From Halarcobacter ebronensis (lineage in GTDB: Bacteria > Campylobacterota > Campylobacteria > Campylobacterales > Arcobacteraceae): DNA of 64,000 nt. The stretch is taken from the NCBI RefSeq assembly GCF_013201825.1, contig NZ_CP053836.1, forward strand, positions 744,001-808,000, written 5' to 3'. Below, one piece after another: positions 36,185-58,391 of the stretch. Under the pieces are notes generated by a model. That model was not told the DNA's origin. It was given only the letters and a program-made list of their open reading frames with translations, and did not search any database. Numbering within the stretch: position 1 is the stretch's first letter; each line of letters begins with the position of its first letter. The position numbers and the translations under genes are program-made.

Positions 36185-36252
36185 AAGGAGGGAAAGAAAA
36201 AAAAGCTTATATATTAAAAATTTATTTATACACACAAAAAAGGAATATTTTA

Positions 36253-37368: not shown

Positions 37369-37398
37369 AATACAAAAGTCGCGAATTTGTCATTTGAT

Positions 37399-37420
37399 AA
37401 AAAGAGATAATCTCTTTTTT
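37399..37420 (+). terminator. Terminator of the porin gene
   Basis: A stem of 9 bp (AAAAAGAGA / TCTCTTTTT, loop TAA) ends in a T run. Confidence 0.75.
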
Positions 37421-37450
37421 CTTTCAAAAAAAATAGTAAGTAGTAAAACT

Positions 37451-37477
37451 AATAAAAGGAGATTTTCTCCTTTTATT
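37451..37477 (-). terminator. Terminator of the GGDEF-EAL gene
   Basis: A 12-bp stem (AATAAAAGGAGA / TCTCCTTTTATT, loop TTT) directly follows the minus-strand stop codon; a T-rich stretch comes after it on minus. Confidence 0.65.
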
Positions 37478-39384: not shown

Positions 39385-39844
39385 TATAATCTTCTACAAA
39401 CTGTTTATACTCATCTGATAATATAATATTATTTTTAGAGAGTCTATCTTTTATAAATATAATATTTGGTCTACTTTTACTCCAAAAAAATGCACCAACA
39501 TATTGATGATTATGTAAAAGTCTTTTGTAATTATTTGTAAAAAGATGTTTCTCATTTATCTTGTAACAATTTCCTAAATTGCTTGTATATTTAACAAATA
39601 TAAAGTTTGCTTTATCACAACTATCAACAATATGTACTTTTTTTGAATAGACTTTTTTATCAATATCTTTTATATCAGGTATAAATAGATTTATCTCTTT
39701 ATCTTTTAATATATCTTTTGCAATTTTGCTTATGATTTTAGCTTCTAGTTCTATTACTTTGTCATATTCATCAATCAAATAAGTGTAGTGTTGTTGGGCA
39801 TTTATACTAAGAGATAGTAGGAGGATTAATAATATCTTTTTCAT
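39374..39844 (-). CDS. Periplasmic protein linking TonB-type receptor and GGDEF-EAL genes
   Basis: The start at 39844 is set by TAATG coupling to the upstream receptor stop. It gives 156 residues with a signal peptide (MKKILLILLLSLSINA). The mature protein has two cysteines (VDSCDKAN and GNCYKI), which could form a disulfide, and strands like NFIFVKY and IIFIKD. It overlaps the GGDEF-EAL gene by 11 bases. By position it recalls YfiR, the periplasmic controller of the YfiN cyclase. I see only weak sequence likeness to that family, so the role as signal carrier is a guess. Confidence 0.75.
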   Translation of the reverse strand: MKKILLILLLSLSINAQQHYTYLIDEYDKVIELEAKIISKIAKDILKDKEINLFIPDIKDIDKKVYSKKVHIVDSCDKANFIFVKYTSNLGNCYKINEKHLFTNNYKRLLHNHQYVGAFFWSKSRPNIIFIKDRLSKNNIILSDEYKQFVEDYNEN

Positions 39845-41748: not shown

Positions 41749-41774
41749 TAAACATCCCATCTGTGTTTAATAAT

Positions 41775-41780
41775 ATTGTA
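41775..41780 (-). promoter_or_regulatory. Candidate -10 box of the receptor/GGDEF-EAL operon
   Basis: TACAAT on the minus strand. With the hairpin after the upstream peroxidase gene it suggests that the trio is transcribed separately. Confidence 0.35.
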
Positions 41781-41823
41781 GTAAATCTTAGGTTAAAAAA
41801 TAGTAAATATTTCTTTATAATAT

Positions 41824-41846
41824 TAAGAGGTCAAAAAGACCTCTTA
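41824..41846 (-). terminator. Stem-loop at the end of the iron-linked operon
   Basis: TAAGAGGTC / GACCTCTTA around a five-base loop (A5 on plus), beginning at the peroxidase stop codon. The following minus-strand sequence is AT-rich but not a clean T run. Confidence 0.5.
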
Positions 41847-42998
41847 TTTTTTGAGTAAGTGCTCGTATCTCTCATCTGTTAGTAGTTTCATAAAAGCAAC
41901 TAAAGCGTCAATTTTTCTATCATTTTGCTTTTTAGCTTTTAGCTCTTCTAAAGAGATTGTTTCTTCAACTTCAGGTTTATCCCAAGGTTTTCCTGTTTCA
42001 GGATTGATTGTTCTGTCTTTATTGTTATATTTATCATAAAACTCCACAACTGTTCTTAAATCTTTAAAGACACCATTATGCATATATGGAGCAGTTACAG
42101 CTACATTTCTTAAACTAGGTACTTTATATTTTCCCCTTTGATTTTCATCATTTACATTTGGGTTTGCTAATAATCCATCATCTTTAACTTTTACACCATT
42201 TTTAGCTCTTAAAGCTTTGTTCTCTGGAACTCCAATATTATGGTATTCATAATTTGTAAAAGTTTCACCCTTTTTATCTTCACCTTTTAACACATGGCAA
42301 GTTGCACAAGAGTTATTATTGTTTGAGAAAAAGATTGATCTTCCTAAATCCTCTAAAGGAGTTAAATCATATTCACCCCTTAAAAACTTATCATATTTTG
42401 AATCAAAAGGAGCAAACTCCTTTGTCATTTCAAATTTTTCAATAGAATCAGTCATTGCAAAATATGCTTTATCCACTGATTTAAAGATATCTTCTCCATA
42501 AATCTTCTTTAGACTCTCTACATAATAAGCATTCTCTTTTAATCTATCAACAACAGCTTTTTTATCAGGCATTCCCATCTCAATTGGGTTTAATGGAGGA
42601 CCACCAGCTTGTCCTGCTAAAGTTGCTTCTCTTCCATCCCAAAATTGTCCACCAATATATTTTTTCTTTTTTTCGTCATAATGAAATTTTGGACTAAACA
42701 TTGCATAAGCTGCCATTGGAGCTTTTCTATCTCCTAAAGATTTACCATCATCTCCTAAAGACGCCATTGAATCAACTCCGTTATCTCTGTTGTCTGTGAA
42801 TGCAGCCTCTGGATTGTGGCAAGTTGCACAAGCCATAGTTCTATTTTTTGATAGATTTTTATCAAAAAATAGAGCCTGCCCCAAACTCTCTTTCATTTTT
42901 ACTTTTTTTGCTAAGTCCTCTTTTGAAACATTAGCACTATTGCAGGCACTAAAAAGCATAGTAGCAGTTATTAGAGTACCTAATTTTAAATATTTCAT
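41844..42998 (-). CDS. Di-haem cytochrome c peroxidase / MauG-family lipoprotein
   Basis: A 384-residue protein with lipobox FSAC (Cys19) and two c-haem motifs, CATCH at 57-61 and CATCH at 231-235. GQFWDGREATL, NPIEMGMP and the C-terminal PYMHNGVFKDLRTVVEFYDKY are typical of bacterial di-haem peroxidases. It reduces peroxide or oxidises a protein partner in the periplasm. It is coupled by TAATG to the fatty-acid-hydroxylase-family gene, with GAAGGAG before its start. In this operon it may act with the DUF1111 protein in iron or haem-linked redox work. Confidence 0.92.
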   Translation of the reverse strand: MKYLKLGTLITATMLFSACNSANVSKEDLAKKVKMKESLGQALFFDKNLSKNRTMACATCHNPEAAFTDNRDNGVDSMASLGDDGKSLGDRKAPMAAYAMFSPKFHYDEKKKKYIGGQFWDGREATLAGQAGGPPLNPIEMGMPDKKAVVDRLKENAYYVESLKKIYGEDIFKSVDKAYFAMTDSIEKFEMTKEFAPFDSKYDKFLRGEYDLTPLEDLGRSIFFSNNNNSCATCHVLKGEDKKGETFTNYEYHNIGVPENKALRAKNGVKVKDDGLLANPNVNDENQRGKYKVPSLRNVAVTAPYMHNGVFKDLRTVVEFYDKYNNKDRTINPETGKPWDKPEVEETISLEELKAKKQNDRKIDALVAFMKLLTDERYEHLLKK

Positions 42999-43900
42999 TA
43001 ATTTCTCCTTCTTAAAATATTTACAAATGGATAAAATATGATGTTGCTAAGTGAATTATAGTTATTCATTTGCTCTTTTTTTAATCCAAATTTTAAAGTT
43101 TTGACTTCACAAGAGAGTTTTAAACTTCCAAAAATTCTGTCCCAAACGGCTAAATAACTTCCATAGTTTTTATCAAAATGTTTTTTGCTATGGTGAATTT
43201 GGTGTTGCTTTGGTGAGATAAACCACTTTTCCAAAGGTTTAAAGTAAGCAAAAGGGATATGCGAATGTCTTAAATTTGAACCCAAAAGAGAGAAAACAAA
43301 AACAAAAATATTTGCTCCTAAAACTTCATGCACTCCTATTCTTGAACCAAAAAAGTATATGAAAACACCTGTAACAACTCCAATTCCAAGTGAATATCTA
43401 AATCCAAAAAGAATATTTTCAACTGGATGAACTCTATAAAAAGTTAAAGGGTTTAATACTTTTGCACTATGGTGTACTTTGTGAAACTCCCAAAGTATAG
43501 GAATAGTGTGAAGAAATCTATGTAACCAATATCTTGTAAAATCACTTACAACAAATAGTGTAATAGTATATAGAACAAGTGTTGTCTCGTAAGAGATATG
43601 CTGAATATGATTATAACCAAAGTTATAATATAACTGCTTATTTACAAAAAAAGCAACACTCTTTGCACTAATTACTATTGGAATAATTAATAGCATTTTT
43701 ATAAAGTAAGATAAAATAAAATAGTAATAATCAAGCTTTGCACTAGGGTGTAACCACAGTTTTGAGCTAAAATTCACTCTTTTGTATCTACTATTTGCTG
43801 CAATATATATCATACCAATAGCAATTGATGAAAATAAATAGACCCAGTATGTTCTTCTATCTGGGTCTATTAGGTACTCTAAGATTAATAAATCATGCAT
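42998..43900 (-). CDS. Sterol desaturase / fatty acid hydroxylase family membrane protein
   Basis: A 300-residue integral membrane di-iron enzyme family member with the eight-histidine pattern: HRFLH, HKVHH and HQIHH near residues 125-235, between four to five membrane helices. Bacterial members hydroxylate lipids or other hydrophobic substrates. The start at 43900 is 11 bases after the imelysin stop, and the stop overlaps the peroxidase start. Its presence in an iron-linked operon with imelysins is unusual enough to note. The substrate is unknown. Confidence 0.9.
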   Translation of the reverse strand: MHDLLILEYLIDPDRRTYWVYLFSSIAIGMIYIAANSRYKRVNFSSKLWLHPSAKLDYYYFILSYFIKMLLIIPIVISAKSVAFFVNKQLYYNFGYNHIQHISYETTLVLYTITLFVVSDFTRYWLHRFLHTIPILWEFHKVHHSAKVLNPLTFYRVHPVENILFGFRYSLGIGVVTGVFIYFFGSRIGVHEVLGANIFVFVFSLLGSNLRHSHIPFAYFKPLEKWFISPKQHQIHHSKKHFDKNYGSYLAVWDRIFGSLKLSCEVKTLKFGLKKEQMNNYNSLSNIIFYPFVNILRRRN

Positions 43901-43911
43901 ATAAAATCCTA

Positions 43912-44898
43912 TTAATCACCATCTGCTTCAATAATTTTTGCATTTATTGATAACTCTTCAATTATCTCTAAAAACAAAATAACATGAATTTCACTAATCT
44001 CTTCATACAAATCATCTGCTTTTAAAAGATCATCATTCTCTATTTTTTTAACTAATTCAAGGGATTTGTTTATTGACTCTCTTAATCTTTGTATTTGTTC
44101 GCCATTTGTGATTTTTAGTAGATAATCTCCATAATCTTCATAGCTCTTATTATCAAAAATATTTTTGTATGTTTTTAATATAGCTTCAATTGCATTTGCA
44201 CTATTTTTACTAATATAGTATTCAGCTCTACTATTATCAGGTTTCCCTTCATATTTTTTAGTAGCACCCATAATATCACCAATTCTCCACTCTTTTAACT
44301 TGTAAGTACTTTGAATAATGGCATTTATGGTAATTGAGTTAGCTTTTTTTAAATCTTTTAAAAAATTCTCTTTTTGTGCTAAATACTCCTCATTTATATC
44401 ATTAAGATATGAGCCAATTTTATTAACTATTGTTAAAGCTATCTCATTTACTCTTTTATCTTTTATATCTTTTTTATAAAGAATATACTCTAAAGCACTT
44501 ATTGATTTAAGTGAGTTTTTAAATAGTGCAACTCTTACTTCATCACTACTTTTTATTGCTCTATCAAGTTGGGCAGTTATATCTTCACTTAAATTATGAA
44601 AAGTGTCAATATATCTTGGAGTATCAATAAAATCATCATTTAAATCACCTAAAATATAAAAAGTTTCTACACTTTTCCATGTTTGTACAAGTTTTGTAAA
44701 CCCTTCTTTACTCTTTTTTACATCACTTTTTTTTATTGCCTCTTTTAACTCATCTATACTTTTAAGTGAACTATTTAGATCTTTTAAGATAACTTTTTCA
44801 TATAAAGAGTTTAAAACACTTTTATTCTCTTGTGTATCATCTGCAAAACAAAGAATTGATGTAATTGCAATGATTAACAAACCTTTAATTAATCTCAT
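43912..44898 (-). CDS. Imelysin-family periplasmic protein (second copy)
   Basis: A 328-residue secreted protein with signal peptide MRLIKGLLIIAITSILCFA. The helical mature chain carries WKSVETFYILGD and SALEYILY, matching the imelysin (EfeO/IrpA-like) fold; the usual GxHxxE is reduced here to the SALEY form. Such proteins bind iron or haem complexes in the periplasm. It follows the DUF1111 gene by two bases. The layout imelysin-DUF1111-imelysin resembles the Fur-regulated PA4370-PA4372 genes of Pseudomonas aeruginosa as I recall them. Confidence 0.85.
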   Translation of the reverse strand: MRLIKGLLIIAITSILCFADDTQENKSVLNSLYEKVILKDLNSSLKSIDELKEAIKKSDVKKSKEGFTKLVQTWKSVETFYILGDLNDDFIDTPRYIDTFHNLSEDITAQLDRAIKSSDEVRVALFKNSLKSISALEYILYKKDIKDKRVNEIALTIVNKIGSYLNDINEEYLAQKENFLKDLKKANSITINAIIQSTYKLKEWRIGDIMGATKKYEGKPDNSRAEYYISKNSANAIEAILKTYKNIFDNKSYEDYGDYLLKITNGEQIQRLRESINKSLELVKKIENDDLLKADDLYEEISEIHVILFLEIIEELSINAKIIEADGD

Positions 44899-44900
44899 CT

Positions 44901-46301
44901 CTATACCTCTTCTAAAAATTTAATTAGTTTTTCTCTTTTTTTCTTTTCAAGATTCATATATGTTTTTTTAATATTTTCAGCCTCTCCACCATGCCAAAGA
45001 ATAGCCTCTTGAAAATCTCTTGCTCTACCATCATGTAAGAGTCTAGGGGTTTTTTTATTTATTTTTTCATGAAGAGCAAGTCCCCATAAAGGTGCAGTTC
45101 TCCACTCATTTCCCGTTGCTTTAAATTCACTTCTTCCATCTGCTAAACCTTCACCCATATCATGAAGCAATAGATCTGTAAAAGGTGAAATTTTTATTCC
45201 AGCTTTTGTAGTAAAAGAGTCCACATGACATTTATTGCAACCTATTTGTTTAAATAGTGCTAAACCCTCTTTATACTCTTTAGTCTCTTTTGCACTATAG
45301 GTTTTTCTATGGGTTATATAATATGTCATTGCATCAAGTCTTAACTCTGGTAAATCAATAGCATCTCTTGCTTTTGGAGATTTTTTGCACCCAACTTGAG
45401 TATCTGTACAAGTATCATTTGGATAATAGATGGTTGTAAGTCCCATATCATTATTTGCTGCATCTGCTGCTTGGTGTTTTATTGAAGTTGTGGTTGCTTT
45501 CCAGCTAAATTTTCCAAGTTGAATTTTTTTTGTAATAGGAGAGTAAACATAGTTTGCTTTTCCTGAAATGCCATCACCATCTTTGTCAAACTCATCTTCA
45601 TTTTTTAATATTTGTTCATTTGGAATATCATCTAAAAGTCCCATTCCATTTAGAGTTGGTGCAAGTCTAAAAGTAAGAGTGGTATCCTTATGAAGTTCTC
45701 CATACTGCAAATCTTTTAAAGCATAGTGTGGTTTTAAAATAGTATCAACTTCCCCATCAGGAAATCTAACTTCTATTTCACTAAAAGTAATATTTGCTTT
45801 TGCTTCAAATTTTACACCATGGATTCCATTTATTGAGATTTGATTACCATAATTAGGCTCTTTTACAAGACCATAAAGTTCAAGTTGTTTTTTATGCTCT
45901 TTTGAACCATCACTTTTAATTGACAATTTTGGAATTAAACTTCTTGAAAAATCATCATTTGTATTATATAGAGTTCCTTTCCCATTTGATGGGTGACAAC
46001 TAATACAGGTATTAGCATTAAAAAGTGGTCCTAAACCATCCCTTGCAGTTGTTGCACTTGGTGCTTCAACCCAAGGAATTCTAAAAAAACTCTTTCCTAA
46101 CATAAATTTGTCATACTCTTCATCATTTAAACCATCAATAGGTTTTAGTAAAAGTGACTCATTTTTTTCACTTGATAAATCTTTGCCCAAACCATTAACG
46201 GCAAAAAGCCCTATAGCAAGTGTTGCTATAAGGCTTTTTACTAAAATAGTTTTTGATACAAATGATTTATAGTTTTGTTTCTTCTGGATCTGTAACATCA
46301 T
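44901..46301 (-). CDS. DUF1111 di-haem oxidoreductase-like protein
   Basis: 466 residues with an N-terminal membrane or signal helix (~18-37) and two c-haem motifs: CISCH (99-103) and CNKCH near residue 350. RIPWVEAPS, TRDGLGPLFNA-type sequence and the C-terminal LLHDGRARDFQEAILWHGGEA are the landmarks of the di-haem DUF1111 family, related to MauG peroxidases. It overlaps the imelysin gene by 35 bases; no other in-frame start was seen. Probably a periplasmic electron carrier acting with the imelysins. Confidence 0.9.
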   Translation of the reverse strand: MMLQIQKKQNYKSFVSKTILVKSLIATLAIGLFAVNGLGKDLSSEKNESLLLKPIDGLNDEEYDKFMLGKSFFRIPWVEAPSATTARDGLGPLFNANTCISCHPSNGKGTLYNTNDDFSRSLIPKLSIKSDGSKEHKKQLELYGLVKEPNYGNQISINGIHGVKFEAKANITFSEIEVRFPDGEVDTILKPHYALKDLQYGELHKDTTLTFRLAPTLNGMGLLDDIPNEQILKNEDEFDKDGDGISGKANYVYSPITKKIQLGKFSWKATTTSIKHQAADAANNDMGLTTIYYPNDTCTDTQVGCKKSPKARDAIDLPELRLDAMTYYITHRKTYSAKETKEYKEGLALFKQIGCNKCHVDSFTTKAGIKISPFTDLLLHDMGEGLADGRSEFKATGNEWRTAPLWGLALHEKINKKTPRLLHDGRARDFQEAILWHGGEAENIKKTYMNLEKKKREKLIKFLEEV

Positions 46302-47607
46302 CTGTACTTAAAGAGATACCATTTGCTATAGCAACATCAACCATTGCATCACCAAGTTTTCTCATCTCATTTTTAAGTTTTACAATAACTTTTGCTTGAG
46401 GATTATCTGGTTGTATTTGATAATCAAAATGCTCTTTTGTTTTCGCAACTTCATCTATACTTTTAATTTTTGATTCAATTGAAGACATTAATGTTTCAAT
46501 TTTTGCTTTTTGCTCACTAGGAACTGCATCAAGTAAAGAAACTCCATATGATTTACCCATATATGAAGCAGTTAAAGCATTTTTAAAACCTTGATAGTTT
46601 TGTACAATATCTCTGTGTGTATTATCAGAGAAACAAGAGTGTTCATCCTCTTCTGACGGAGTTAATACAGCAACTGCAATTCTTTCATTAGCTAGTTCTG
46701 ATTTAATAAATACACCCATTCCAGCAATTATTTGTTTTAAAGCAGTTTGGCTAGGAATATTTTTAGAAGAATTTTCCCCTGATAATTTTCCTAAAAATGC
46801 ATCTTTATATAATCCACCATCATTCCAAGCACCTGCAACTATTTCTAAATCTGAAACAATTTTATCTGTTGCAGCTTTTAAGTAGTTTAATCTTCTTTGT
46901 GCATTTTTGTCTGTAGTAAAATCAGATAGAGGTCTTTGTCCAGCTGTTAATGGCCCGTGAGTAATTGCATCTTTTACAAAGTTAGAGTAATCTTGATCTT
47001 GTCCCCAAAGTAAAAATTCAATTGCATGGTATCCTGTTGCAACGTTTGCTTCTCCACCATTTTCATTTAAAGCAGTAATTGCATCAACTGTAATTTTTGA
47101 AACATCTACAGAAGTAGAATCTTCTCCACCTGGATTAAAGTTTCCTGCTGTGTCAATAATATTTCCTGATGTTCTTTTCCCCTCTGCATCAATAGTATAA
47201 TCAATCATGTTTTCATCTAAAGGCCAAGCATTAATTTGTCCCTCAAGTGCTCCATATGTTTCAGCAACCCATCCCTCTTCAGCATCAATTGGACCATTAG
47301 ATAGTCTGAATATCTCTGTTTGTCCATAAGATTCTCTAGAAGCAACCCAAGCATTTTTTGCCTCTTCTAATGTTTTTTCACTTGGAGAAGTTACAAATTT
47401 ATCAACAGCAATTTGAAGTTTTTTTGCATCTTCAAGGGCATCATTATAATTAGTTTGTGCAATTTTTGCATAAGAAGCTAATATTTTCTCTGCTTTATTT
47501 TCAACTTTTACAGTTGGTTCTGTAGTTTGAGAGTTAGTAGTACAACCACTAAATGCCAACGCTGCTGCAACACTAATAGAAGCTGCAATTAATCTTGTTT
47601 TCTTCAT
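46267..47607 (-). CDS. Imelysin-family lipoprotein, first gene of the iron-linked operon
   Basis: A 446-residue lipoprotein with lipobox FSGC (Cys22). It carries the imelysin signature GYHAIEFLLWGQD (GxHxxE), twin helical repeats and conserved NGPIDAEEGW, as in IrpA and insulin-cleaving-type proteins. These proteins bind iron or an iron complex in the periplasm; a peptidase role is disputed. Fur-type boxes lie 35 and 98 bases upstream of the ATG, so iron repression is likely. It heads a five-gene run down to the di-haem peroxidase. Confidence 0.9.
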   Translation of the reverse strand: MKKTRLIAASISVAAALAFSGCTTNSQTTEPTVKVENKAEKILASYAKIAQTNYNDALEDAKKLQIAVDKFVTSPSEKTLEEAKNAWVASRESYGQTEIFRLSNGPIDAEEGWVAETYGALEGQINAWPLDENMIDYTIDAEGKRTSGNIIDTAGNFNPGGEDSTSVDVSKITVDAITALNENGGEANVATGYHAIEFLLWGQDQDYSNFVKDAITHGPLTAGQRPLSDFTTDKNAQRRLNYLKAATDKIVSDLEIVAGAWNDGGLYKDAFLGKLSGENSSKNIPSQTALKQIIAGMGVFIKSELANERIAVAVLTPSEEDEHSCFSDNTHRDIVQNYQGFKNALTASYMGKSYGVSLLDAVPSEQKAKIETLMSSIESKIKSIDEVAKTKEHFDYQIQPDNPQAKVIVKLKNEMRKLGDAMVDVAIANGISLSTDDVTDPEETKL

Positions 47608-48238: not shown

Positions 48239-50392
48239 ATGACCAATGAAATTATAATAAAAAGTATTGCCAGCAATAGAGTACGTCTAAAATCAGATAT
48301 TTTCTCTACAAAAACAAATATCCAGCTAATAGAAAAAGAGTTTGAAGATCTTTTTACCTCTTTTAGGGATAATATTGCCTGTAAATCAATTGTATTTACC
48401 TACTCTTTAAATGTAACTTTTGATGAGATATTTGAGAAATTAAACAGACTTTTTAATATAAGCGTTTCAATACCTGCAAGTAATGCCTTATGTGAGCAGA
48501 GCAGTTGTAGTAATTGTAATTTGAAAAAACATGATGAAAAGAGTTGGAAACGTAAGATTTTTGAGTTTGTTTTATTAAGTGGTTATGCAATATATATTTT
48601 TGTTAGTGAAAATATATTAGGTTTAACAATCGCTGCAACTCCTTTTAGTTTGGTTGGAATTATCTCTTTAATAGCAGCAATTCCACTATTAAAAGAGTCT
48701 TATGAAGATATAAAACAGAAAAAATTCACACTTCATACTTTTATGAGTAGCACTCTTCTTCTTGCAGTATTTTTTGGTGAAGCAACTGCAGCTTTTGAGA
48801 TAATTTATATCTTAAGAGGTGGAATGCTTTTAGAAGAGTATATTGCCAATAAATCAAGGGAAGAGATACAAAATCTAGTTGAGTTAGATGTAAAAAAAGT
48901 CTATATATTAAATGATGGTGTAGAGATTGAAATAGATATAGAAGAGTTAAAACAAAATGATACTTTAGTTTGCAGAAGTGGAGAAAAAATACCAGTTGAT
49001 GGAGTAATAATTGATGGAAGCGCAGAGATAAATGAAGCAATAATAAATGGAAGAAGTGAACCTGATTTTAAACAAAAAGATGATGAAGTTTTTGCCGGAA
49101 CTGTTTGTGAAAGAGGAAGAATATTTATAAATGTTATTGCTTTAGGAAATGAAACTTATATCTCAAGAACAATGAGAGAGGTTGAATTCTCTTTAATGCA
49201 AAAATCTCCAAGTGAGTTAGAAGCAGATAGACTTGCTAATAAATTACTCAAATTAGGAACACTTTTAACTGTAGGAACATTTTTCCTAACAGGTTCTTTT
49301 ACAGCAGCATTTTCAACAATGATTGTTATGTCTTGCCCTTGTGCAACTGTATTAGCTGCTTCAACTGCCATTAGTGGTGGTATTGCAAATGGTGCAAAAC
49401 AAGGAATTTTGATAAAAGGTGGAGAGGCTTTAGAGAGTGTTGGCAAAAGTGAAGTGTTTTGTTTTGATAAAACAGGAACTTTAACCACAGGAAAACCAGT
49501 AATAAATGATATTCTAACCTTTGATGATATTGATGAAAAGACTCTTCTCTCTTATGCCGCAATGGCAGAGTATAGAAACTCTCATCCAATCGCAAACTCT
49601 ATAGTAAAATATGCAAAAGAGAAAAATATAGAGATAAGACAAGATGTTTTAAGTGAGATAATTCCAGGCTTTGGAGTTAAATCAAATATAGATGGAAAAA
49701 GGGTTTTAATAGGAAATAAAGCTTTATTAACTAGATTTAAAGTATCAATAAAAGAGCATAAACATGAAGTTACTACCCTCTTAAATAGTGGGAAAACTGT
49801 AGTTCTTGTTGCTTTAGAAGATAAATTATTAGGGCTTTTAAGTTTTAGTCATGAAGTTAGACCTGGAACTAAAGAGATGATTGAAGATTTAAGAAGTAGG
49901 GGAGTTAAACATATTGCACTATTAACAGGAGATGAGGTAAAAGTTGCTAATGCTTTTGCCCTTGATTTTGGTTTTGATTCAGTTTTTGCAAATCAAACAC
50001 CACAAGGTAAAGCAGATGCAATAAATGAGTTAAAAAACAGATACAATGGTGTTGTAATGGTAGGAGATGGAGTAAATGATACTTATGCAATGAGTAAAGC
50101 TGATGTTGCAATATCATTTGCAGCAGGGGGAAGTGAAGCTGCTATTGCTGTTTCTGATATTGCAATTACACACTCTCATCCTGAAGATGTTGTAAATCTT
50201 TATGATTTAAGTAAAAAAAGTCTTAATGTTGTAAATCAAAACTACTATATAGGTACAGGAACAAATCTAATAGGTGTTGCCCTTTCAGCTTTAGGACGAT
50301 TAACGCCAGTTGGAGCAGGACTTATACATATAGGACATACTGTTGGAATTATGGCAAACTCTTCAAGGCTTGCAATTGATAATAATTCTTAA
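48239..50392 (+). CDS. Atypical P1B-type ATPase with altered actuator motif (first gene of the ferrosome-like cluster)
   Basis: A 717-residue P-type ATPase. The phosphorylation motif is DKTGT (Asp410), the membrane metal motif SCPCATV (C366-P-C368), with SHP in the nucleotide domain and GDGVND in the hinge. The N-terminus starts with SNRVRLK and an HMA-like fold without CxxC; a CEQSSCSNC cluster lies near residue 85. The actuator loop, normally TGES, reads N270-G-R272-S, so the glutamate that drives dephosphorylation is missing. It may be regulatory or structural, not a full pump. It differs from ordinary Cu or Zn exporters in both the N-terminal domain and this loop. Confidence 0.88.
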   Translation: MTNEIIIKSIASNRVRLKSDIFSTKTNIQLIEKEFEDLFTSFRDNIACKSIVFTYSLNVTFDEIFEKLNRLFNISVSIPASNALCEQSSCSNCNLKKHDEKSWKRKIFEFVLLSGYAIYIFVSENILGLTIAATPFSLVGIISLIAAIPLLKESYEDIKQKKFTLHTFMSSTLLLAVFFGEATAAFEIIYILRGGMLLEEYIANKSREEIQNLVELDVKKVYILNDGVEIEIDIEELKQNDTLVCRSGEKIPVDGVIIDGSAEINEAIINGRSEPDFKQKDDEVFAGTVCERGRIFINVIALGNETYISRTMREVEFSLMQKSPSELEADRLANKLLKLGTLLTVGTFFLTGSFTAAFSTMIVMSCPCATVLAASTAISGGIANGAKQGILIKGGEALESVGKSEVFCFDKTGTLTTGKPVINDILTFDDIDEKTLLSYAAMAEYRNSHPIANSIVKYAKEKNIEIRQDVLSEIIPGFGVKSNIDGKRVLIGNKALLTRFKVSIKEHKHEVTTLLNSGKTVVLVALEDKLLGLLSFSHEVRPGTKEMIEDLRSRGVKHIALLTGDEVKVANAFALDFGFDSVFANQTPQGKADAINELKNRYNGVVMVGDGVNDTYAMSKADVAISFAAGGSEAAIAVSDIAITHSHPEDVVNLYDLSKKSLNVVNQNYYIGTGTNLIGVALSALGRLTPVGAGLIHIGHTVGIMANSSRLAIDNNS

Positions 50393-50421
50393 AAATTTTT
50401 AAGGTTAGATTTATTTTAATA

Positions 50422-50427
50422 TATAAT
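50422..50427 (+). promoter_or_regulatory. Candidate internal promoter of the cluster
   Basis: TATAAT in the 64-bp gap between the first ATPase and the HMA-like gene, 30 bases before the TTG start at 50457. Confidence 0.4.
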
Positions 50428-50456
50428 AATTTTGAACATAAAAAGGAAAGAAAAGT

Positions 50457-50771
50457 TTGGTAACAGTTGATAAATTAATAGAAATAAGCTCTTATCTAAC
50501 CCTTATTCACCATATTAAAGGTAGAATTAGAGTTAGGGTTAATCCAAAAATTAAAGAGCAAAGTAATAAAATTACTTTAGAAGATATTGAGGATATTCCA
50601 AATAGAATAGAGGGTATAAAAAAAATCAAGATTAATAAAATTGTTGGTTCTATAACAATTGAGTATGATAATGGCATTTTTCCTGATAATTTGTGGATAG
50701 ATTTAATAAATCAAAAAAATCTAGAAGAGATAGTAGAGATTTTAAACAAACTTTCAAAAGAGGTAAACTAG
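50457..50771 (+). CDS. Stand-alone HMA-like protein with Arg-rich strand (FezC-like)
   Basis: A 104-residue protein starting at TTG with AAGGAAAG nine bases upstream. The order of strands and helices (HHIKGRIRVRV ... IEGIKKIKINKIVGSITIEYD) fits the heavy-metal-associated ferredoxin-like fold, but the CxxC loop is absent and an Arg-Ile-Arg-Val-Arg strand is in its place. The same kind of motif heads both ATPases of the cluster. I recall Arg-rich HMA-like segments in ferrosome FezB/FezC proteins. It may bind polyphosphate, lipid or a partner ATPase rather than a metal ion. Its stop adjoins the next ATG directly. Confidence 0.75.
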   Translation: MVTVDKLIEISSYLTLIHHIKGRIRVRVNPKIKEQSNKITLEDIEDIPNRIEGIKKIKINKIVGSITIEYDNGIFPDNLWIDLINQKNLEEIVEILNKLSKEVN

Positions 50772-51539
50772 ATGCAAAAAAATAGTAAGACTCAAACAGC
50801 AATAGAAGAATTAGAAGTTCCAACAAATTTAGATGCTGAGATATTAGCACAAATGAGAGTTGATCCAAATTTTGATGAACCCATTCTTCATCAAGTTCTA
50901 AGAATTGCTGTATATGATGAGTATCATGCCTATGAAACATATAAAAAAGTAATAGAAAAATTTGGAGAGATAACTCCTTTTTCTAATATTTTAGAAGCAG
51001 AGATAAGACACTATGAAGAGCTTACCACACTACTAAATAAATATCAAGTTCCAGCTCCTATAAATGATTGGGAAGAGAAAGTTGATGAACCAAATTCAAT
51101 ACTAGAAGCTTCTGAGATTGCTGTTGCCGAAGAGATAGACAATATTAAAATGTATGATAATTTAATCTCTTACTCAAAAGAGTATCCAGATGTTTTAGAT
51201 ACTTTGTATAGACTTCAAGCAGCTTCATACAACAATCATCTTCCCGCTCTAAGACAAAATGTAGCAAAACATCTAAATGTTACAGCGGAAAAAGTAGATG
51301 TAAATAATATTTATCAACAATATTCTAATCATAATATTGAAGAAGCACTAGGAAAACTAGATGAATTTAGTGTTATGGCTTCAAAATTTGCGTCAGGAGA
51401 TGTTAGTCAAGAGGATATTCTAAAGCTTTTAAGTAACTCAAATATCTCTTTTATTGGTGGAGCTTTAGTTGGTGCAGTAGGTGCAACAATGTTTTCTCAG
51501 ATCTCTAAAGAGAGAAAAAACAGCGAAGAAGAGGAGTGA
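50772..51539 (+). CDS. Ferritin-like (DUF2202-like) protein with C-terminal membrane anchor
   Basis: 255 residues. A four-helix bundle (~40-180) has di-iron-type ligands: DEYHAYETY in helix 1, EAEIRHYEEL (ExxH) in helix 2, EEIDNIKMYD in helix 3 and NNHLPAL in helix 4, as in DUF2202 ferritin-like proteins. The C-terminus has a glycine-rich hydrophobic segment (FIGGALVGAVGATMF) followed by a basic tail, so the protein is probably tied to a membrane. A ferroxidase at the surface of an iron-storing vesicle would explain this. The next gene begins two bases after its stop. Confidence 0.82.
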   Translation: MQKNSKTQTAIEELEVPTNLDAEILAQMRVDPNFDEPILHQVLRIAVYDEYHAYETYKKVIEKFGEITPFSNILEAEIRHYEELTTLLNKYQVPAPINDWEEKVDEPNSILEASEIAVAEEIDNIKMYDNLISYSKEYPDVLDTLYRLQAASYNNHLPALRQNVAKHLNVTAEKVDVNNIYQQYSNHNIEEALGKLDEFSVMASKFASGDVSQEDILKLLSNSNISFIGGALVGAVGATMFSQISKERKNSEEEE

Positions 51540-51541
51540 AA

Positions 51542-51634
51542 ATGCCAATTATACCATTTGCTTTAGGTGCACTTTTAGGTGGTGCTACAGTAGTTTTGTT
51601 TAAAAAAGTAAAAACAAATAAAAAGGAGAAGTAA
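51542..51634 (+). CDS. Thirty-residue glycine-rich membrane peptide
   Basis: A very short gene between the ferritin-like and the 82-aa genes. It encodes MPIIPFALGALLGGATVVLF followed by a basic tail KKVKTNKKEK. GAGGAG overlaps the preceding stop as a Shine-Dalgarno, and AAGGAG for the next gene lies inside its 3' end, which shows tight packing. The GxLLGG helix resembles the anchors of its neighbours. Likely a single-span structural peptide of the same membrane. Confidence 0.8.
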   Translation: MPIIPFALGALLGGATVVLFKKVKTNKKEK

Positions 51635-51635
51635 A

Positions 51636-51884
51636 ATGTTACCATTTATTGCAGGTGTAGCAGCTGGTGCTGTTGCTGTTGTTGCTTATAACAACAATAA
51701 AAAAATCAGAAAAAGTGTCGATGAAGGTGCAAAAAAAGCTAAAAAAATTGCAGAAGATGGTCTTGAAAAAACTAAAGAACTTGCCAAAGATATAAAGGCT
51801 ACTATTGAAGACAAAGTAGATAGTCTAAAATCTAAAAAAACAGAAAAAATTCAGAAGAAAGAGGAAGTAGCTAATGGCAAATAA
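51636..51884 (+). CDS. Membrane protein with glycine-rich anchor and amphipathic helix, 82 aa
   Basis: Begins MLPFIAGVAAGAVAVVAY, a glycine/alanine-rich membrane helix, then a long charged helix with 11-residue-like periodicity (EGAKKAKKIAEDGLEKTKEL), similar to YtxH or apolipoprotein-type helices that lie on membranes. It overlaps the next gene by 11 bases. Proteins of this form could shape or coat a vesicle. No enzyme motif is present. Confidence 0.8.
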   Translation: MLPFIAGVAAGAVAVVAYNNNKKIRKSVDEGAKKAKKIAEDGLEKTKELAKDIKATIEDKVDSLKSKKTEKIQKKEEVANGK

Positions 51885-52212
51885 TTTATCAATAAATACA
51901 GGTGCTCCAAGAAATGTAACTGGACATGTAGTAAGCGGAGCTTTAGCAGCAGGAGCACTTGCAGCAGCTGTAAATTATAATAAATACAAAAAGGGTGAAG
52001 CTACAAAAAATGAGGCTATAAACAACTCAATTAAGCTTTCAGCTCAAGGTGGAATTGCTACAGGAAGTGCTATTGCTGCGGCAAACTATCTTGGAAATGG
52101 TAGTGTAGTAAAAATGTTAACAGCAGTTTCAGTTGGTGCAATGGGTATTTATGCTGTTGAAAAACTAAGTGAGAAACTAAGTAAAAAAGAGTTAATTGAA
52201 GAGGAAAAATAA
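51874..52212 (+). CDS. Glycine/alanine-rich two-helix membrane protein, 112 aa
   Basis: Contains two low-complexity hydrophobic segments (VSGALAAGALAAAVNY and GGIATGSAIAAANYLG), perhaps with a third near MLTAVSVGAMGIYAV, joined by short charged loops. The GxxxG and small-residue pattern favours helix packing, as in magnetosome and ferrosome membrane proteins. Its stop overlaps the next ATG by one base (TAATG). No known family is recognised. Confidence 0.8.
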   Translation: MANNLSINTGAPRNVTGHVVSGALAAGALAAAVNYNKYKKGEATKNEAINNSIKLSAQGGIATGSAIAAANYLGNGSVVKMLTAVSVGAMGIYAVEKLSEKLSKKELIEEEK

Positions 52213-52523
52213 TGCAAGAAAAAAGTTCATTAGGTACAAATCCATACATCAACAAAGCAGAAGATGTTAATATAGTAAATCAAAATCCATACATAAATAG
52301 TGATACAACTGCTTCAAATCTTTTAAGTAGTTTTGATACAAATAAATTTTTGATAGGTGCAGTTGTGGGTGCAGTTGGTGCATATCTTTTAACAAATGAA
52401 AATGCACAAAAAGCTATTTTTAAAACTATTGCAAAGGGAAGTGCTCTTTTTAGTGCTGGAATTGAAGAGATGAAAGAGCGATTCGAAGATGCAAAAGCTG
52501 AGATGGAAGCTGAGCAAGAGTAA
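52212..52523 (+). CDS. Membrane protein with duplicated NPYIN motif, 103 aa
   Basis: An N-terminal soluble stretch carries the motif NPYIN twice (GTNPYINKAED and QNPYINSDT). A glycine-rich membrane helix follows (FLIGAVVGAVGAYLLTN), nearly the same as the anchor of the ferritin-like protein, and then an amphipathic Lys/Glu-rich helix. It may recruit partners through the repeated motif. It is translationally coupled to the preceding gene and eight bases from the second ATPase. Confidence 0.8.
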   Translation: MQEKSSLGTNPYINKAEDVNIVNQNPYINSDTTASNLLSSFDTNKFLIGAVVGAVGAYLLTNENAQKAIFKTIAKGSALFSAGIEEMKERFEDAKAEMEAEQE

Positions 52524-52531
52524 GAGAGAGT

Positions 52532-54640
52532 ATGAGTAACAACATAAAACTTTTACATAAGACCACAAAACGTGTAAGATTTTATTGTGATGAATTAAAA
52601 AGTAGTGATTTTAATAACTCCTCTTTAATTCAATATTTAGAGTCTATTGATGGAATCAATAGAGTAAGAATAAACAAAAAAATTGGTTCAATTGTTTTTG
52701 AACATGATGGAAAAGCTTTAAGTACAATAGAGGATTTATTAGCTAATCTAGATATAAATAGATACAAAGTTTGTGAAACTTTTTTAAGTAGTTGTTTCCC
52801 TTGCATAAAAGATGAAGAACCAAGCTTAAATGGTGTAATCAGAGCAGGTACAGCTTTGGGAACTGAGCGTTTTATCTCAAATGATACAGCTAAATTTTTA
52901 ATAACACTTTTTGCCGCAAAACCACTTTTATTTGAAGGAACAAAGGAGCTTTTTACTGAAGGTCTAACTTCAAAGGTTTTAGAAGCAATGGCAGTTGGTG
53001 TAAGTTTGGCAAGAAAAGATTATTTAGCAGCAAATAGTACAAATACTATGCTTGAACTTGGTGAATATATTGAAGAAACAACTGTACATAAAAGTGATGA
53101 TTTAATCAAAGAGTTAGCAAAACCAAATGTTACAAAAGCTTGGATTGAAGTTGAGGAAAAAGGAAAATTTACTCAAAAATTAGTTGATACGGCAACTATA
53201 AAAGTTGGCGATATTGTAATTGTTGGTGCTGGTGATACAATTGCAATTGATGGACATATTATTTCTGGAAATGCTTCTGTTAATCAAGTCTCAATGACAG
53301 GAGAGAGTGAACCTGTATCAAAACAAAGAGGTGATAGGGTTATCTCTGGAACGGTTGTAGAAGATGGAAGATTAAAAATCTGGGCTGAATATGTTGGAGA
53401 AGATACGGCAACAGCTAGAATAAAAAACTATATAGCTAGTTCTTTAAATGAGAAATCAGCAATTGGATTAAAAGCTACAAAATTAGCTGATAAATTAGTT
53501 CCTGTCACTTTAGGCCTTGCAGGTGTCTCTTATCTAATAAATAGAAATTTTGAGAGTGTGGCAGCAGTTTTACAAGCAGATTACTCTTGTGCACTTAAAT
53601 TAGCTACTCCTGTTGCTTTTAAATCATCTATTTCAAAAGCTGGAAAAGATGGTGTAATGATTAAAGGTGCAAAATCTATTGAATCTTTAAGTAGCGCAGA
53701 CACTTTTGTTTTTGATAAAACAGGAACACTAACTTATGGAGAGCTTGAAGTAGAGTCAATAACCTCTTTTGATGATAAATGGAAAGAGGATGATATTTTG
53801 AACTTAACTGCAAGTGCAGAAGAGCACTATTTTCATCCTGTAGCAGAAGCTGTTGTAAAAGCAGCAAGAGAGAAAGGTTTTGTTCATATGCACCATGAAG
53901 AGGTTGAGTTTATAGTTGCCCATGGTGTTAAAACTATAGTAAAAGACAAAGAGGTTGTAATAGGGAGCAGACACTTTTTAGAGGATGATGAAAAGATAGA
54001 TTTCTCTAAATATGAAGATAAGATTGAAAAAGCTTTGTTAGATGGTAAAACAATGCTTTATGTTGGATATGATAAAGAGCTTCTTGGAACAATTGGTATG
54101 CGAGACAAAGTAAGAGAAAATGCCAAAGATACAATTAAAAGATTAAGAGACCTTGGTGTCAAAGAGATTGTAATGCTAACAGGAGATATCCAAGAGAAAG
54201 CTGATGTTTTAGCAAAAGAGCTTGGTGTTGATACAGTTTTTGCAAATATGAGACCAACAGATAAAGCTGAGATTGTAAATAAGTTAAAAGAAAAAGGTGC
54301 TAATGTTGCCTTTGTTGGGGACGGAATAAATGATGCTCCAGCACTTATGAGTGCTAATGTTGGTATTAGTATGAGTAAAGGTGCGGATATAGCAAAAGCA
54401 ACAGCTGATATTGGGCTTTTAAAAGATGATTTGGATTCAGTTGCCCAAGTAAAAGAGTTGGCAAATAAGACAATGAAACTAATAAACTACAATTTTAATA
54501 CAACAGTTGGAATAAACTCTATTATTCTAGCAGGTGCAACAATAGGATTGTTTAATCCTATCACAACAGCTGTTTTGCATAATGGAACTACCATAGGATT
54601 ACTTATTAATTCTATGAAGGGCATAAGCTTAAAAAAATAG
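52532..54640 (+). CDS. P1B-type ATPase, FezB-like, with Arg-motif N-terminus and non-CPx metal motif
   Basis: A 702-residue P-type ATPase with all catalytic motifs: TGES (Thr256), DKTGT (Asp395), HP in HYFHPVAEA and GDGIND. The membrane metal motif usually written CPCALGLATP is YSCALKLATP here (Cys353), so the first Cys and Pro are lost. The N-terminal ~85 residues form an HMA-like fold with TKRVRFYC in place of CxxC. An atypical ion motif and Arg-rich N-terminus are the features I recall for FezB (P1B-6), the pump of ferrosomes. It would move iron into a vesicle. Cu or Zn export is less likely given the motif. Confidence 0.88.
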   Translation: MSNNIKLLHKTTKRVRFYCDELKSSDFNNSSLIQYLESIDGINRVRINKKIGSIVFEHDGKALSTIEDLLANLDINRYKVCETFLSSCFPCIKDEEPSLNGVIRAGTALGTERFISNDTAKFLITLFAAKPLLFEGTKELFTEGLTSKVLEAMAVGVSLARKDYLAANSTNTMLELGEYIEETTVHKSDDLIKELAKPNVTKAWIEVEEKGKFTQKLVDTATIKVGDIVIVGAGDTIAIDGHIISGNASVNQVSMTGESEPVSKQRGDRVISGTVVEDGRLKIWAEYVGEDTATARIKNYIASSLNEKSAIGLKATKLADKLVPVTLGLAGVSYLINRNFESVAAVLQADYSCALKLATPVAFKSSISKAGKDGVMIKGAKSIESLSSADTFVFDKTGTLTYGELEVESITSFDDKWKEDDILNLTASAEEHYFHPVAEAVVKAAREKGFVHMHHEEVEFIVAHGVKTIVKDKEVVIGSRHFLEDDEKIDFSKYEDKIEKALLDGKTMLYVGYDKELLGTIGMRDKVRENAKDTIKRLRDLGVKEIVMLTGDIQEKADVLAKELGVDTVFANMRPTDKAEIVNKLKEKGANVAFVGDGINDAPALMSANVGISMSKGADIAKATADIGLLKDDLDSVAQVKELANKTMKLINYNFNTTVGINSIILAGATIGLFNPITTAVLHNGTTIGLLINSMKGISLKK

Positions 54641-54647
54641 AGGTAAT

Positions 54648-55301
54648 ATGGAAAAGCAAGAGATAATTGAAAAAAAGAGTTTAAATCTATTAAAAGATAT
54701 TGATTTAGATACAAAAAAAGAGATTGCTAAAATTGGTATGACAGCAACAATGGGAATTACTGTTGCAACTTCTATGTATATGAAAAATAAATTTATGAAA
54801 AGACTACATGTGGTTGCAGGGGTTGCCCTTGTAGGATTTTCATACTGGCATCACACTTTATATCAACCTGCAAAGAAAAAAGAGAGTAAAAAAGCATTGC
54901 CAGAGAAGATTAACTCTAAAGAGAGTGAAACAATTGTTGAAGAGAATCAAAATGTTGCAATATCTTTAAATAGCTTTTTTGCAGAGATGGCAATAACAGG
55001 AAAGTTGACCCACAATGAGTTCAAATCTTTTGAAGAGAAAATAGAGACTTTACTTTCAAGTTATGAAGTCCCTTCTATGAATATTTTAATAGATATTACA
55101 AAGTTAGAGGGAGTTGAGTTCAAAGTATTGTGGGATGATATTCTTTTTACTCTAAAACATATAAAAGAGATGAAAAAAGTTGCAATTGTTGGTAACAGTA
55201 AAGCTGAAGAGTACTCAACAAGTTTTGCAAATAGAGTATTCCCTTTCTCTTTAGAGTATTTTGAAGAGTATTCAAAAGCTAAAGAGTGGTTAAAAGCATA
55301 A
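54648..55301 (+). CDS. Membrane-anchored SpoIIAA-like (STAS-fold) protein
   Basis: 217 residues. One or two membrane helices lie at ~27-70 (GMTATMGITVATSMYM and VVAGVALVGFSYWHH), followed by a charged linker. The C-terminal ~120-residue domain has the alternating strands and helices of SpoIIAA-like proteins (MNILIDITKLEGVEFKVLWD, KKVAIVGNSKAEEY), a fold thought to bind lipids or small hydrophobic ligands. It ends the ferrosome-like cluster and is followed by a terminator. Role unknown; it may recruit soluble proteins to the membrane. Confidence 0.8.
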   Translation: MEKQEIIEKKSLNLLKDIDLDTKKEIAKIGMTATMGITVATSMYMKNKFMKRLHVVAGVALVGFSYWHHTLYQPAKKKESKKALPEKINSKESETIVEENQNVAISLNSFFAEMAITGKLTHNEFKSFEEKIETLLSSYEVPSMNILIDITKLEGVEFKVLWDDILFTLKHIKEMKKVAIVGNSKAEEYSTSFANRVFPFSLEYFEEYSKAKEWLKA

Positions 55302-55668: not shown

Positions 55669-58149
55669 TTATTTCGTTGAAATTTTTGGTTTTATTCCAC
55701 CTTCCCAATTTATATTTTTATTAGGGAAAAGTGCCACTATAAGAGCAATAAAAACAATGGCAAAATAGAAATATGTCATTGCTTCAACTCCTGTGTAGTT
55801 ATTATATGAACCAATTGAAAATACAATTGAGGATAAAACTATCCCAAGTGTAACTGGGAAAAATATTGCAAAAAGCATCCACTTATAACTATTTGTTTGC
55901 ATTTTTACTACAATCATTGTAGCTATACAAGGTGGAGTTAAAAGCATAAAAATAATAATTGCAGCTGCATGTAAAGGTGTATATCCACTATTTAATGACA
56001 TAGCTTCTTCTGCTCTCATGCTATCAGCTTTATTATTTTCATAAATTGAACCTAAAGTTGCAACAGCACTCTCTCTTGCTGCAAAAGAACTTAAGAAAGC
56101 TACATTTATTCTCCAATCAAAACCTGCATATTTTGTTATTGGCTCAATTGCTCGACCTGCCATTCCAAGAAGAGAGTTTTCAATTTTTTCATTTTTTATA
56201 CTTCTTAAAACTCTTTTTCTATCTGTTGATAATTTTCTTAATGCTGCATTTATTTTTTTTGCTTCTGCATCCCTTAGAGGTTTTACAAATTTAAAAAATA
56301 TGCTGTTTTTTTGAAGGAAATCTTCATCAACTTTTTTAGACTCTTCAGGTGATGAAAGAGTCATCTTTTTTGCTCTATAACTATCATAATAGTTTAGTAG
56401 TTGTGATACTTTTTGTTTTGAATCAACTTCACTATAGTAACTGCTACTTTGTGTTGCCCTATCAAATTTAGTTAATGCTACTTCAATATCATTTTCAAAA
56501 TTTGCTTTTGAAGTTTCATCTATTCCTGGAAATTGCAATAGGGCAAAAAGAACTATGGCAACTGCTAATACAATTGTTACTACTTTTTTTATATATATCC
56601 AAACCCTTTGAACAGCTCTTATTACAACACCTTTTACTGTTGGAAGATGATATGGTGGCAACTCCATTAAAAAAGGAGCAGTTTCCCTTGTTTTTAAAAT
56701 TGTAGAGGTTAGAAGTTTTGCCACAATTAATGCAACAAAAAGGGTAACTGTAGAGATAAAAAACATCATTATTGCCATCTGTGCTTTAAAAAAAGCACCA
56801 AGAAGTAGGGTATAAAAAGGCACTTTTGCAAGGCAGTTCATATAAGGAACTGAAAAGATTGTTGCCATTCTTGCTCTATCATCTGCTATTCCTTTTGTTG
56901 CCATAACTCCAGGAACTGCACAACCTCCAACCATTGCACCACCTAAAACCAAAGGTAGAGTTGATTGTCCGTGAAGTCCAAATCTTTTAAATACTTTATC
57001 AAGAATAAAAGCCATTCTTGGCATATATCCCACATCTTCCATTATTGCAATCAGCGCAAAGAGAATAAAAAATATTGGAATATAGTTCATTAAAGCATTT
57101 GCACTATTTACCATCCAAACACCCAAATCTGTTATCATAGGAACATCGATTAAATCTGCTTGGGGAAGAATATCAATAACAAAATTTTTAAAGCTTGCTA
57201 AAATCGGCCAAGTATAATCTGTAAGTTTATATCCCCATACAATTGAGATTTGATAAACCAAAAACATAAGTAAAATCAAAATAGGAAGGGCTAAAAATCT
57301 ATTTAGGATGATTTTATCAACTTTATCTGTTAGAGTTTCGATTCCACTTTTTTTGTCTTCAATTGCATTATGGTAGATAATATCAGCAGAGTCATATCTA
57401 ATAGAAGCTAAAAATGAAGGAAAATCTTTATCATACTTTTCATGGAAAATTTTAGACTCTTTTTCTATCTCTTCTTCAATCTTAGGATAATCTTTTTTTA
57501 AATACTCAATTATAGTTGTATCACCTTCAAGTAGTTTAATACAAAGCCATCTTTTATTAAGATGAAAAGTATTCTCTTGGATTTTCTTTTCAATTGAGTT
57601 TATGTGAGGTTCTAACTCTTCGTAATTGATTTTGAAATCTTCATAGCTTTTTTTATTTGTTGCTACATCAACAATACTTTTCATAATCTCTTTGCTTCCA
57701 ACTCCCTTTGCTCCTGTTGCTTCAATAACGGGACAATTAAGCATTTCAGAGATTTTTTTTGAGTCTATCTCTATTTCTCTTCTTTTTGCCACATCCATCA
57801 TATTTAATACAACTACAACTGGAATTCCAATTTCAAGTAACTGAAAAGTCAAATATAGATTTCTTTTTATATTCGAAGCATCAATAACATTTACAATAAC
57901 TTCTGGAGTTTCATTTAATATAAACTCTTTTGCAACTCTCTCCTCAAGGGAATATGAACTAAAAGAGTAGGTTCCAGGAAGATCAACCATCTCAATTTTA
58001 TAGTTTCCATATTTAAAAAATCCAGTTTTTTTATCAACTGTTACACCTGGATAGTTTGCAATATGTTGTTCTATCCCACTAACCATATTAAAAATTGTAG
58101 ATTTACCACAATTTGGTTGTCCTGCAAGGGCAACTTTTATATTATTCAT
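55669..58149 (-). CDS. feoB: Ferrous iron transporter FeoB
   Basis: 826 residues. The N-terminal GTPase domain has G1 GQPNCGKST (~10-18), G3 DLPGTYS and G4 NMMD, and is followed by a helical GDI-like region. The membrane part carries two gate repeats (VGGCAVPGVMATKGI and the C-terminal TPPCIATM segment). FeoB brings Fe(II) across the inner membrane. Compared with E. coli FeoB there is a ~130-residue charged insert before the last gate (~560-690, DRATQSSSYYSEV...), predicted outside the bilayer. It overlaps feoA by four bases. Confidence 0.97.
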   Translation of the reverse strand: MNNIKVALAGQPNCGKSTIFNMVSGIEQHIANYPGVTVDKKTGFFKYGNYKIEMVDLPGTYSFSSYSLEERVAKEFILNETPEVIVNVIDASNIKRNLYLTFQLLEIGIPVVVVLNMMDVAKRREIEIDSKKISEMLNCPVIEATGAKGVGSKEIMKSIVDVATNKKSYEDFKINYEELEPHINSIEKKIQENTFHLNKRWLCIKLLEGDTTIIEYLKKDYPKIEEEIEKESKIFHEKYDKDFPSFLASIRYDSADIIYHNAIEDKKSGIETLTDKVDKIILNRFLALPILILLMFLVYQISIVWGYKLTDYTWPILASFKNFVIDILPQADLIDVPMITDLGVWMVNSANALMNYIPIFFILFALIAIMEDVGYMPRMAFILDKVFKRFGLHGQSTLPLVLGGAMVGGCAVPGVMATKGIADDRARMATIFSVPYMNCLAKVPFYTLLLGAFFKAQMAIMMFFISTVTLFVALIVAKLLTSTILKTRETAPFLMELPPYHLPTVKGVVIRAVQRVWIYIKKVVTIVLAVAIVLFALLQFPGIDETSKANFENDIEVALTKFDRATQSSSYYSEVDSKQKVSQLLNYYDSYRAKKMTLSSPEESKKVDEDFLQKNSIFFKFVKPLRDAEAKKINAALRKLSTDRKRVLRSIKNEKIENSLLGMAGRAIEPITKYAGFDWRINVAFLSSFAARESAVATLGSIYENNKADSMRAEEAMSLNSGYTPLHAAAIIIFMLLTPPCIATMIVVKMQTNSYKWMLFAIFFPVTLGIVLSSIVFSIGSYNNYTGVEAMTYFYFAIVFIALIVALFPNKNINWEGGIKPKISTK

Positions 58150-58391
58150 TTACAATCCTCAATCTCTACTAACATTGCTTCACTTTTTCTGACACTTAGA
58201 TGATAGTTGTGTAGTTTTAACTGCATGGGATCATATAAAGGAGCCTCTCTTATCACTTCAATTTCAACACGGTTTACAAATCCCATATCTAAAAGTTTGT
58301 GTAGAAGTTTTCCTTTTGCATGGATTTTCTTAACCCTTGCTTTTTCACCTTTTTTTAGTAGGTTTAGTGTTTTTGTCTCATTTGTATTCAT
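58146..58391 (-). CDS. feoA: Ferrous iron transport protein FeoA
   Basis: An 81-residue SH3-like cytoplasmic protein that assists FeoB. Motifs: HKLLDMGFV (the LxxMG loop of FeoA/DtxR-type SH3 domains), EIEVIREAPLYDPM and the closing LSVRKSEAMLVEIE. TAAGGA lies upstream of the ATG. The last codons overlap the feoB start, so the two are translationally coupled. Confidence 0.96.
   Translation of the reverse strand: MNTNETKTLNLLKKGEKARVKKIHAKGKLLHKLLDMGFVNRVEIEVIREAPLYDPMQLKLHNYHLSVRKSEAMLVEIEDCK

Follow-up and report, generated by a model that had tools for sequence, protein, structure and literature searches.

Nine adjacent plus-strand genes of Halarcobacter ebronensis, at positions 48239-55301 of the window (the whole 64,000-nucleotide stretch of DNA analysed here), very probably form a fez (ferrosome) cluster, of a subtype found across the Campylobacterota. 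We read the locus in this way because its second ATPase, ATP2, falls in the FezB clade by tree and motifs, and because a FezC-like profile finds the FezC of Desulfovibrio magneticus, whose HMA_2 domain is matched here by a separate gene. The FezA-like match of the small protein G1, the conservation of gene order and the iron-uptake genes on both flanks point the same way, as do published data on FezC and on the P1B-6 substrate. Against this reading speak the weak FezA homology, the lack of a DUF6110 match and the lack of a clear Fur site before the host cluster. Vesicle formation, iron as the substrate, the topology and the division of labour at the locus are what we infer from it.

Gene content of the locus

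Most of the nine genes are preceded by a Shine-Dalgarno-like stretch (Table 1). Eight of them exceed 80 codons, and the ninth, with 30 codons, falls below the 50-residue cut-off of the open reading frame list. A GAGG-type stretch precedes it, and four other loci (L039, L040, L041 and L275) encode a peptide that is similar or nearly identical, so the count of nine given in an earlier note on this DNA was correct. That note had also described a cysteine-free HMA-like protein, four small glycine-rich membrane proteins and a SpoIIAA-like membrane protein. All can be recognized here: the HMA_2 protein contains no cysteine, the small proteins are the micropeptide, G1, the MamC-like protein and G3, and PF11964 is matched in the last gene (E=2.5e-21), behind a two-TM module.

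Table 1. Features of the fez-type locus and of the adjoining feo genes (window coordinates).
Feature	Position	Strand	Evidence
ATP1, P1B ATPase, CPC motif (CPCATVLAASTA), 717 aa	48239..50392	+	ORF, NCBIfam, motif, tree
Cys-free HMA_2 protein, 104 aa, H-x3-GRxR motif	50457..50771	+	PF19991 E=1e-9
FTN, DUF2202/MJ0754-type ferritin-like four-helix domain and C-terminal Gly-rich membrane anchor, 255 aa	50772..51539	+	profile, AlphaFold, Foldseek
Micropeptide MPIIPFALGALLGGATVVLFKKVKTNKKEK, 30 aa, one TM, Gly-rich	51542..51634	+	conservation in other loci
G1, YtxH-like, one TM and charged helix, FezA-like, 82 aa	51636..51884	+	profile to D. magneticus FezA-like, E=5.7e-4
MamC-like, two TM, 112 aa	51874..52212	+	NF038051 E=3e-9, 37 bits, cut-off 100
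G3, YtxH-like, one TM, NPYIN-type disordered N-terminus, 103 aa	52212..52523	+	conserved beside fezB
ATP2, assigned as FezB, 702 aa, N-terminal HMA_2 with H-x4-RxR, TM4 DYSCALKLATP	52532..54640	+	PF19991, motifs, trees
FezC-like two-TM module (two conserved His, DUF4405-like) fused to SpoIIAA-like/STAS, 217 aa	54648..55301	+	PF11964, sub-threshold DUF4405, FezC profile
feoB, Fe(II) importer	55669..58149	-	PF02421 E=5e-64; convergent with cluster
feoA	58146..58391	-	PF04023 E=4e-19

ATP2 groups with FezB

Both ATPases of the cluster are of the P1B type according to NCBIfam. ATP2 carries an HMA_2 domain at its N-terminus (PF19991, E=2e-8), with an H-x4-R-x-R motif that is found alike in D. magneticus FezB and in Clostridioides-like sequences. 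In TM4, ATP2 has instead of CPC the motif D[YF]SCAxK, common to the FezB of D. magneticus and to the Clostridioides-like FezB. The reference FezB sequences are a gene at 3.19 Mb in a genome from the Desulfovibrionaceae search, which we take to be that of D. magneticus RS-1, and L240 and L247, which we infer to be of Clostridioides-like source.

Two ATPase trees were computed, a quick tree of 89 sequences and a mixture-model tree of 62. In both, ATP2 lies inside the FezB clade (100/99 in the mixture-model tree) with the D. magneticus RS-1 and Clostridioides-like FezB, while the generic P1B exporters, including three other ATPases of the host genome, form a distinct clade (100/99). The FezB/P1B-6 tree had been set beforehand as the test on which the ferrosome reading could fail: ATP2 grouped with FezB and away from the exporters. 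Nor does ATP2 have the marks of a Cu/Zn/Co exporter, since its motif reads DYSCALKL, with no CPC, CPH or SPC, and it lies outside the exporter clade. By sequence, we assign ATP2 as the FezB of this locus. Fe(II) is listed as a substrate of P1B-6 ATPases (PMC7558416).

ATP1 falls on the side of FezB, in a separate clade (100/100) that it shares with CPC-type ATPases from Desulfovibrionaceae fez clusters. It has a Cys-rich stretch behind its N-terminal domain. The atypical ion motif earlier ascribed to the ATPases is thus present in ATP2 but not in ATP1, which has an ordinary CPC. Both trees ruled out a position of either ATPase among the generic exporters.

In three Firmicute operons (L083, L255 and L258), an ATPase whose TM4 differs (DFICGIKLST in Priestia) is set among genes for several HMA_2 proteins. 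These operons represent a class that is related yet distinct.

FezC-like and FezA-like partners

Beyond the closest relatives of the host, the last gene of the cluster usually encodes a two-TM protein of 70-95 residues with conserved His. The best Pfam match of this two-TM module is DUF4405, below cut-off (E=0.013-0.08), which is likewise the best, sub-threshold match of D. magneticus FezC; the ferrosome cytochrome FezC has been related to DUF4405 (PMC10979944). A FezC-like profile built from Arcobacteraceae sequences only finds the protein directly after D. magneticus fezB (E=3e-6) and matches the Desulfovibrionaceae equivalents with E=1e-5 to 1e-18. By these matches, the locus contains a DUF4405-like membrane protein of the FezC type, and the module is presumably a heme protein. 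D. magneticus FezC combines HMA_2 and the two-TM module in one protein, whereas in the host HMA_2 is a separate gene and the two-TM module is fused to STAS. The standalone HMA_2 gene is the counterpart of the domain with which D. magneticus FezC begins.

The G1 profile weakly matches the FezA-like protein that precedes fezB in D. magneticus, and a Pfam search with G1 gave no match to DUF6110, to which the Clostridioides protein belongs. The equivalence of G1 and FezA is suggestive only. G3 is kept beside fezB in most proteobacterial fez clusters.

A membrane-anchored ferritin-like protein

The cluster had been noted earlier to encode a membrane-anchored ferritin-like protein, and profile comparison and structure prediction agree with this. 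In the PDB, the FTN family profile matched MJ0754 (3q4n, E=3.9e-8). The AlphaFold model of the host protein shows four helices with a pLDDT of about 90, and a Foldseek search with this model gave MJ0754 as the best solved match, followed by ferritins and bacterioferritins (E=1.1e-3, probability 1.0). The orthologue L092 matches DUF2202 (PF09968) above cut-off; host FTN alone stays below. FTN can be placed, from these comparisons, with the DUF2202/MJ0754 ferritin-like proteins, with which it has in common the four-helix fold and the residues E, ExxH, E and a helix-4 His. Unlike them, it is membrane-anchored and lies inside a fez cluster.

Residues E50, E77xxH80, E121, Q149 and H156 are conserved in 52 of 61 FTN orthologues. 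The classical di-iron set (E, ExxH, E and ExxH on four helices) is incomplete, as helix 4 has Q149 and H156 and lacks the Glu of the second ExxH, which makes catalysis uncertain. In the Campylobacter-like orthologues (L271-L273 and L277) most of the metal ligands are gone, but the cluster is retained. Of the ferroxidase-like component proposed earlier, the ferritin-like part is thus real; since the fourth carboxylate is absent and the ligands are lost in one lineage, the term ferroxidase-like is still a guess.

The C-terminal anchor of FTN resembles the C-terminus of Pro/Gly-rich proteins (E from about 1e-8 to 5e-4), which take the place of FTN in the fez clusters of Desulfovibrionaceae, Desulfarculaceae and Cereibacter. 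The ferritin-like domain is thus found where these proteins have their disordered tail. Outside the Campylobacterota, full-length FTN was found only in the Gammaproteobacterium L092 and in Pseudothauera (L085).

Distribution and gene order

An ATP2 orthologue (at least about 60% identity) is present in 64 of 104 Arcobacteraceae genomes. We compared gene order in 41 Arcobacteraceae loci, that of the host and 40 from relatives. The order HMA_2, FTN, G1, MamC-like, G3, FezB is intact wherever the contig allows, with ATP1 ahead of the cluster in 7 loci and a FezC-like gene downstream in 36; the survey of Arcobacter-group genomes called for in the earlier note thus recovered the same gene order in the 40 further loci. 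The FTN profile matches 107 of 397 Campylobacterota genomes, about 40 of them weakly (near E=1e-16). Twenty regions from other Campylobacterota, around strong and weak matches, all have the same cluster order, most with a FezC-like gene and with ATP1 again as an optional first gene. Such agreement across 40 Arcobacteraceae and 20 other Campylobacterota loci is more than chance. Of the 20 regions, we take one each to be from Sulfurospirillum barnesii, S. multivorans and Wolinella succinogenes; the smaller genomes of families f2 and f3 are presumably Helicobacter- and Campylobacter-like. The order is partly kept in fez-type clusters of Desulfovibrionaceae, Azospirillum, Vibrio and Cereibacter, and ATP1 also occurs in several Desulfovibrionaceae fez clusters.

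The core cluster is also carried by an Arcobacter plasmid, p133_DSM_115972 (L082). A whole cluster of Campylobacterota type, including FTN and the FezC-SpoIIAA fusion, lies in a Gammaproteobacterium metagenome-assembled genome (L092:5460-11015), where horizontal transfer is its probable origin.

This conservation as a unit bears on the alternative that fares best, a vesicle-free efflux complex of the plasma membrane for iron (or Mn/Co), in which FezB exports to the periplasm while FTN and HMA_2 buffer cytosolic metal. P1B pumps are mostly exporters, buffering would suit proteins with ferritin-like and metal domains, and none of the computed results shows a vesicle. We nevertheless consider such a complex unlikely: the gene order is conserved as a unit, the members of the FezB clade in D. 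magneticus and C. difficile function in ferrosomes, and four small Gly-rich membrane proteins and a FezC-like module would have no role in simple efflux.

Iron context and regulation

The cluster that we read as encoding a ferrosome is flanked by an iron-uptake group (TonB receptor, MauG-like protein, two imelysins and DHOR) and by feoBA, the feoAB genes that had been reported nearby. Positions 35693-47607 hold a flavodoxin and an outer-membrane protein as well as the TonB receptor, the MauG-like peroxidase, the two imelysins and DHOR. A FeoB homologue lies inside the fetched stretch in 12 of the 41 Arcobacteraceae loci, where about one or fewer would be expected by chance (an estimate from 1-2 feoB per genome, for genomes that are related to one another). 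More distant fez-type clusters likewise adjoin iron genes.

With iron genes on its flanks, the cluster is very unlikely to serve a different metal (Cu, Zn, Mn or Co), ATP1 with its CPC motif then being the main pump and ATP2 a diverged paralogue. The CPC motif and the Cys-rich stretch of ATP1 would fit such a function, but most loci are without ATP1, and in the tree it stands apart from the exporters.

The Fur-type boxes claimed for this neighbourhood could not be confirmed: before ATP1 the best match to the Fur consensus was 13/19 (p=0.49 versus shuffles), and the stretch before feoA reaches a raw score of 14/19. Many relatives that lack ATP1 (L047-L076) carry, about 75 bp before HMA_2, the block TTGATAATGAnTnTnAnTTTA and, behind it, a pair of TTAAG repeats at a distance of 11 bp. 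This arrangement combines a Fur-like half site with a direct repeat like those of the OmpR family. This block was not seen before the host ATP1.

A relative of MamC in the cluster

The 112-residue protein matches the NCBI model of the magnetosome protein MamC, NF038051, over about 85 residues, with a score that does not reach the equivalog cut-off of 100 bits (Table 1). Nine of ten MamC-like members from fez clusters match the same model, up to 57 bits (E=1.6e-15), and the Gly-rich proteins encoded beside it, which are similar in composition, gave no MamC match with NCBIfam. Chance similarity is disfavoured by this pattern, and the protein is a homologue of MamC rather than a MamC. Both have two TM helices, the protein described here lying outside any magnetosome cluster.

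The MamC-family match might suggest that the locus is the remnant or the forerunner of one for magnetosomes, which form a magnetic mineral; this we regard as barely credible with a match below the equivalog cut-off, FezB as the pump and no other magnetosome family among the cluster proteins.

Desulfovibrionaceae have, next to the fez cluster, a second and divergent mini-set made up of MamC-like and HMA_2 genes (L243:2372-3110, L244:13711-14899 and L245:5766-7109). Two of these three mini-sets include a YtxH-like gene, and one member gives one of the best MamC matches (E=1.6e-15).

A proposed ferrosome mechanism and its significance

In a ferrosome built by this locus, FezB would move Fe(II) from the cytosol into vesicles derived from the inner membrane. 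The Gly-zipper proteins (the FezA-like YtxH-like proteins, the micropeptide and the MamC-like protein) may shape the vesicle membrane and possibly contact the mineral, while the FezC-like module would keep the redox state of iron balanced between the two sides of the membrane. As FTN lacks a signal peptide and its ferritin-like domain is N-terminal to the anchor, the domain is probably on the cytosolic face, where it could collect or oxidize iron beside FezB. The Cys-free HMA_2 domains, with their Arg motifs, may contact proteins or anions rather than act as Cu chaperones, and ATP1 could be an accessory pump.

To our knowledge, ferrosomes have been demonstrated in a few bacteria only. If the reading is right, they would occur in much of the phylum, including Helicobacter- and Campylobacter-like genomes, with a tethered ferritin-like protein and a MamC relative. 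As a tentative suggestion, the MamC family may be an ancestral mineral-contacting protein common to ferrosomes and magnetosomes, and the ferrosome surface of Campylobacterota may have gained a tethered ferritin-like domain that feeds iron to FezB. Protein-based and organelle-based iron storage would then be joined in one machine. Both the coupling of ferritin chemistry to iron organelles and the common descent of ferrosome and magnetosome parts become testable. The earlier note had made no mention of the homology to MamC, of the FezC module or of the wide distribution among the Campylobacterota. A search of the literature other than the founding papers (Grant 2022; Pi 2023) for ferrosomes together with Campylobacter or ferritin-like proteins found no such paper; the novelty of the Campylobacterota clusters and of the MamC link is conditional on the content of those two.

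Comparison with known fez clusters

The clusters of D. magneticus RS-1 (L239) and of the Clostridioides-like sequences (L240 and L247) agree with that of the host in the FezB clade, in the TM4 and N-terminal motifs, and perhaps in a FezA-like small Gly-rich protein beside FezB; L239 also has the FezC-like module. Compared with these three, the host adds FTN, the MamC-like protein, G3, the micropeptide and ATP1. In R. palustris, a cluster of six fez genes has been reported (PMC12016538). A second set of fez-type clusters comes from Desulfovibrionaceae (L243-L245, L249 and L250) and from Azospirillum, Vibrio, Cereibacter and Rhizobiales (L079-L081, L292 and L293); in these, HMA_2, MamC-like, G3 and FezB are consecutive as in the host, often with a host-type anchor protein. 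The Desulfovibrionaceae clusters, like the host, have ATP1 and a FezC-like gene. In this second set the anchor protein bears a Pro/Gly-rich disordered tail, whereas that of the host bears a ferritin-like domain.
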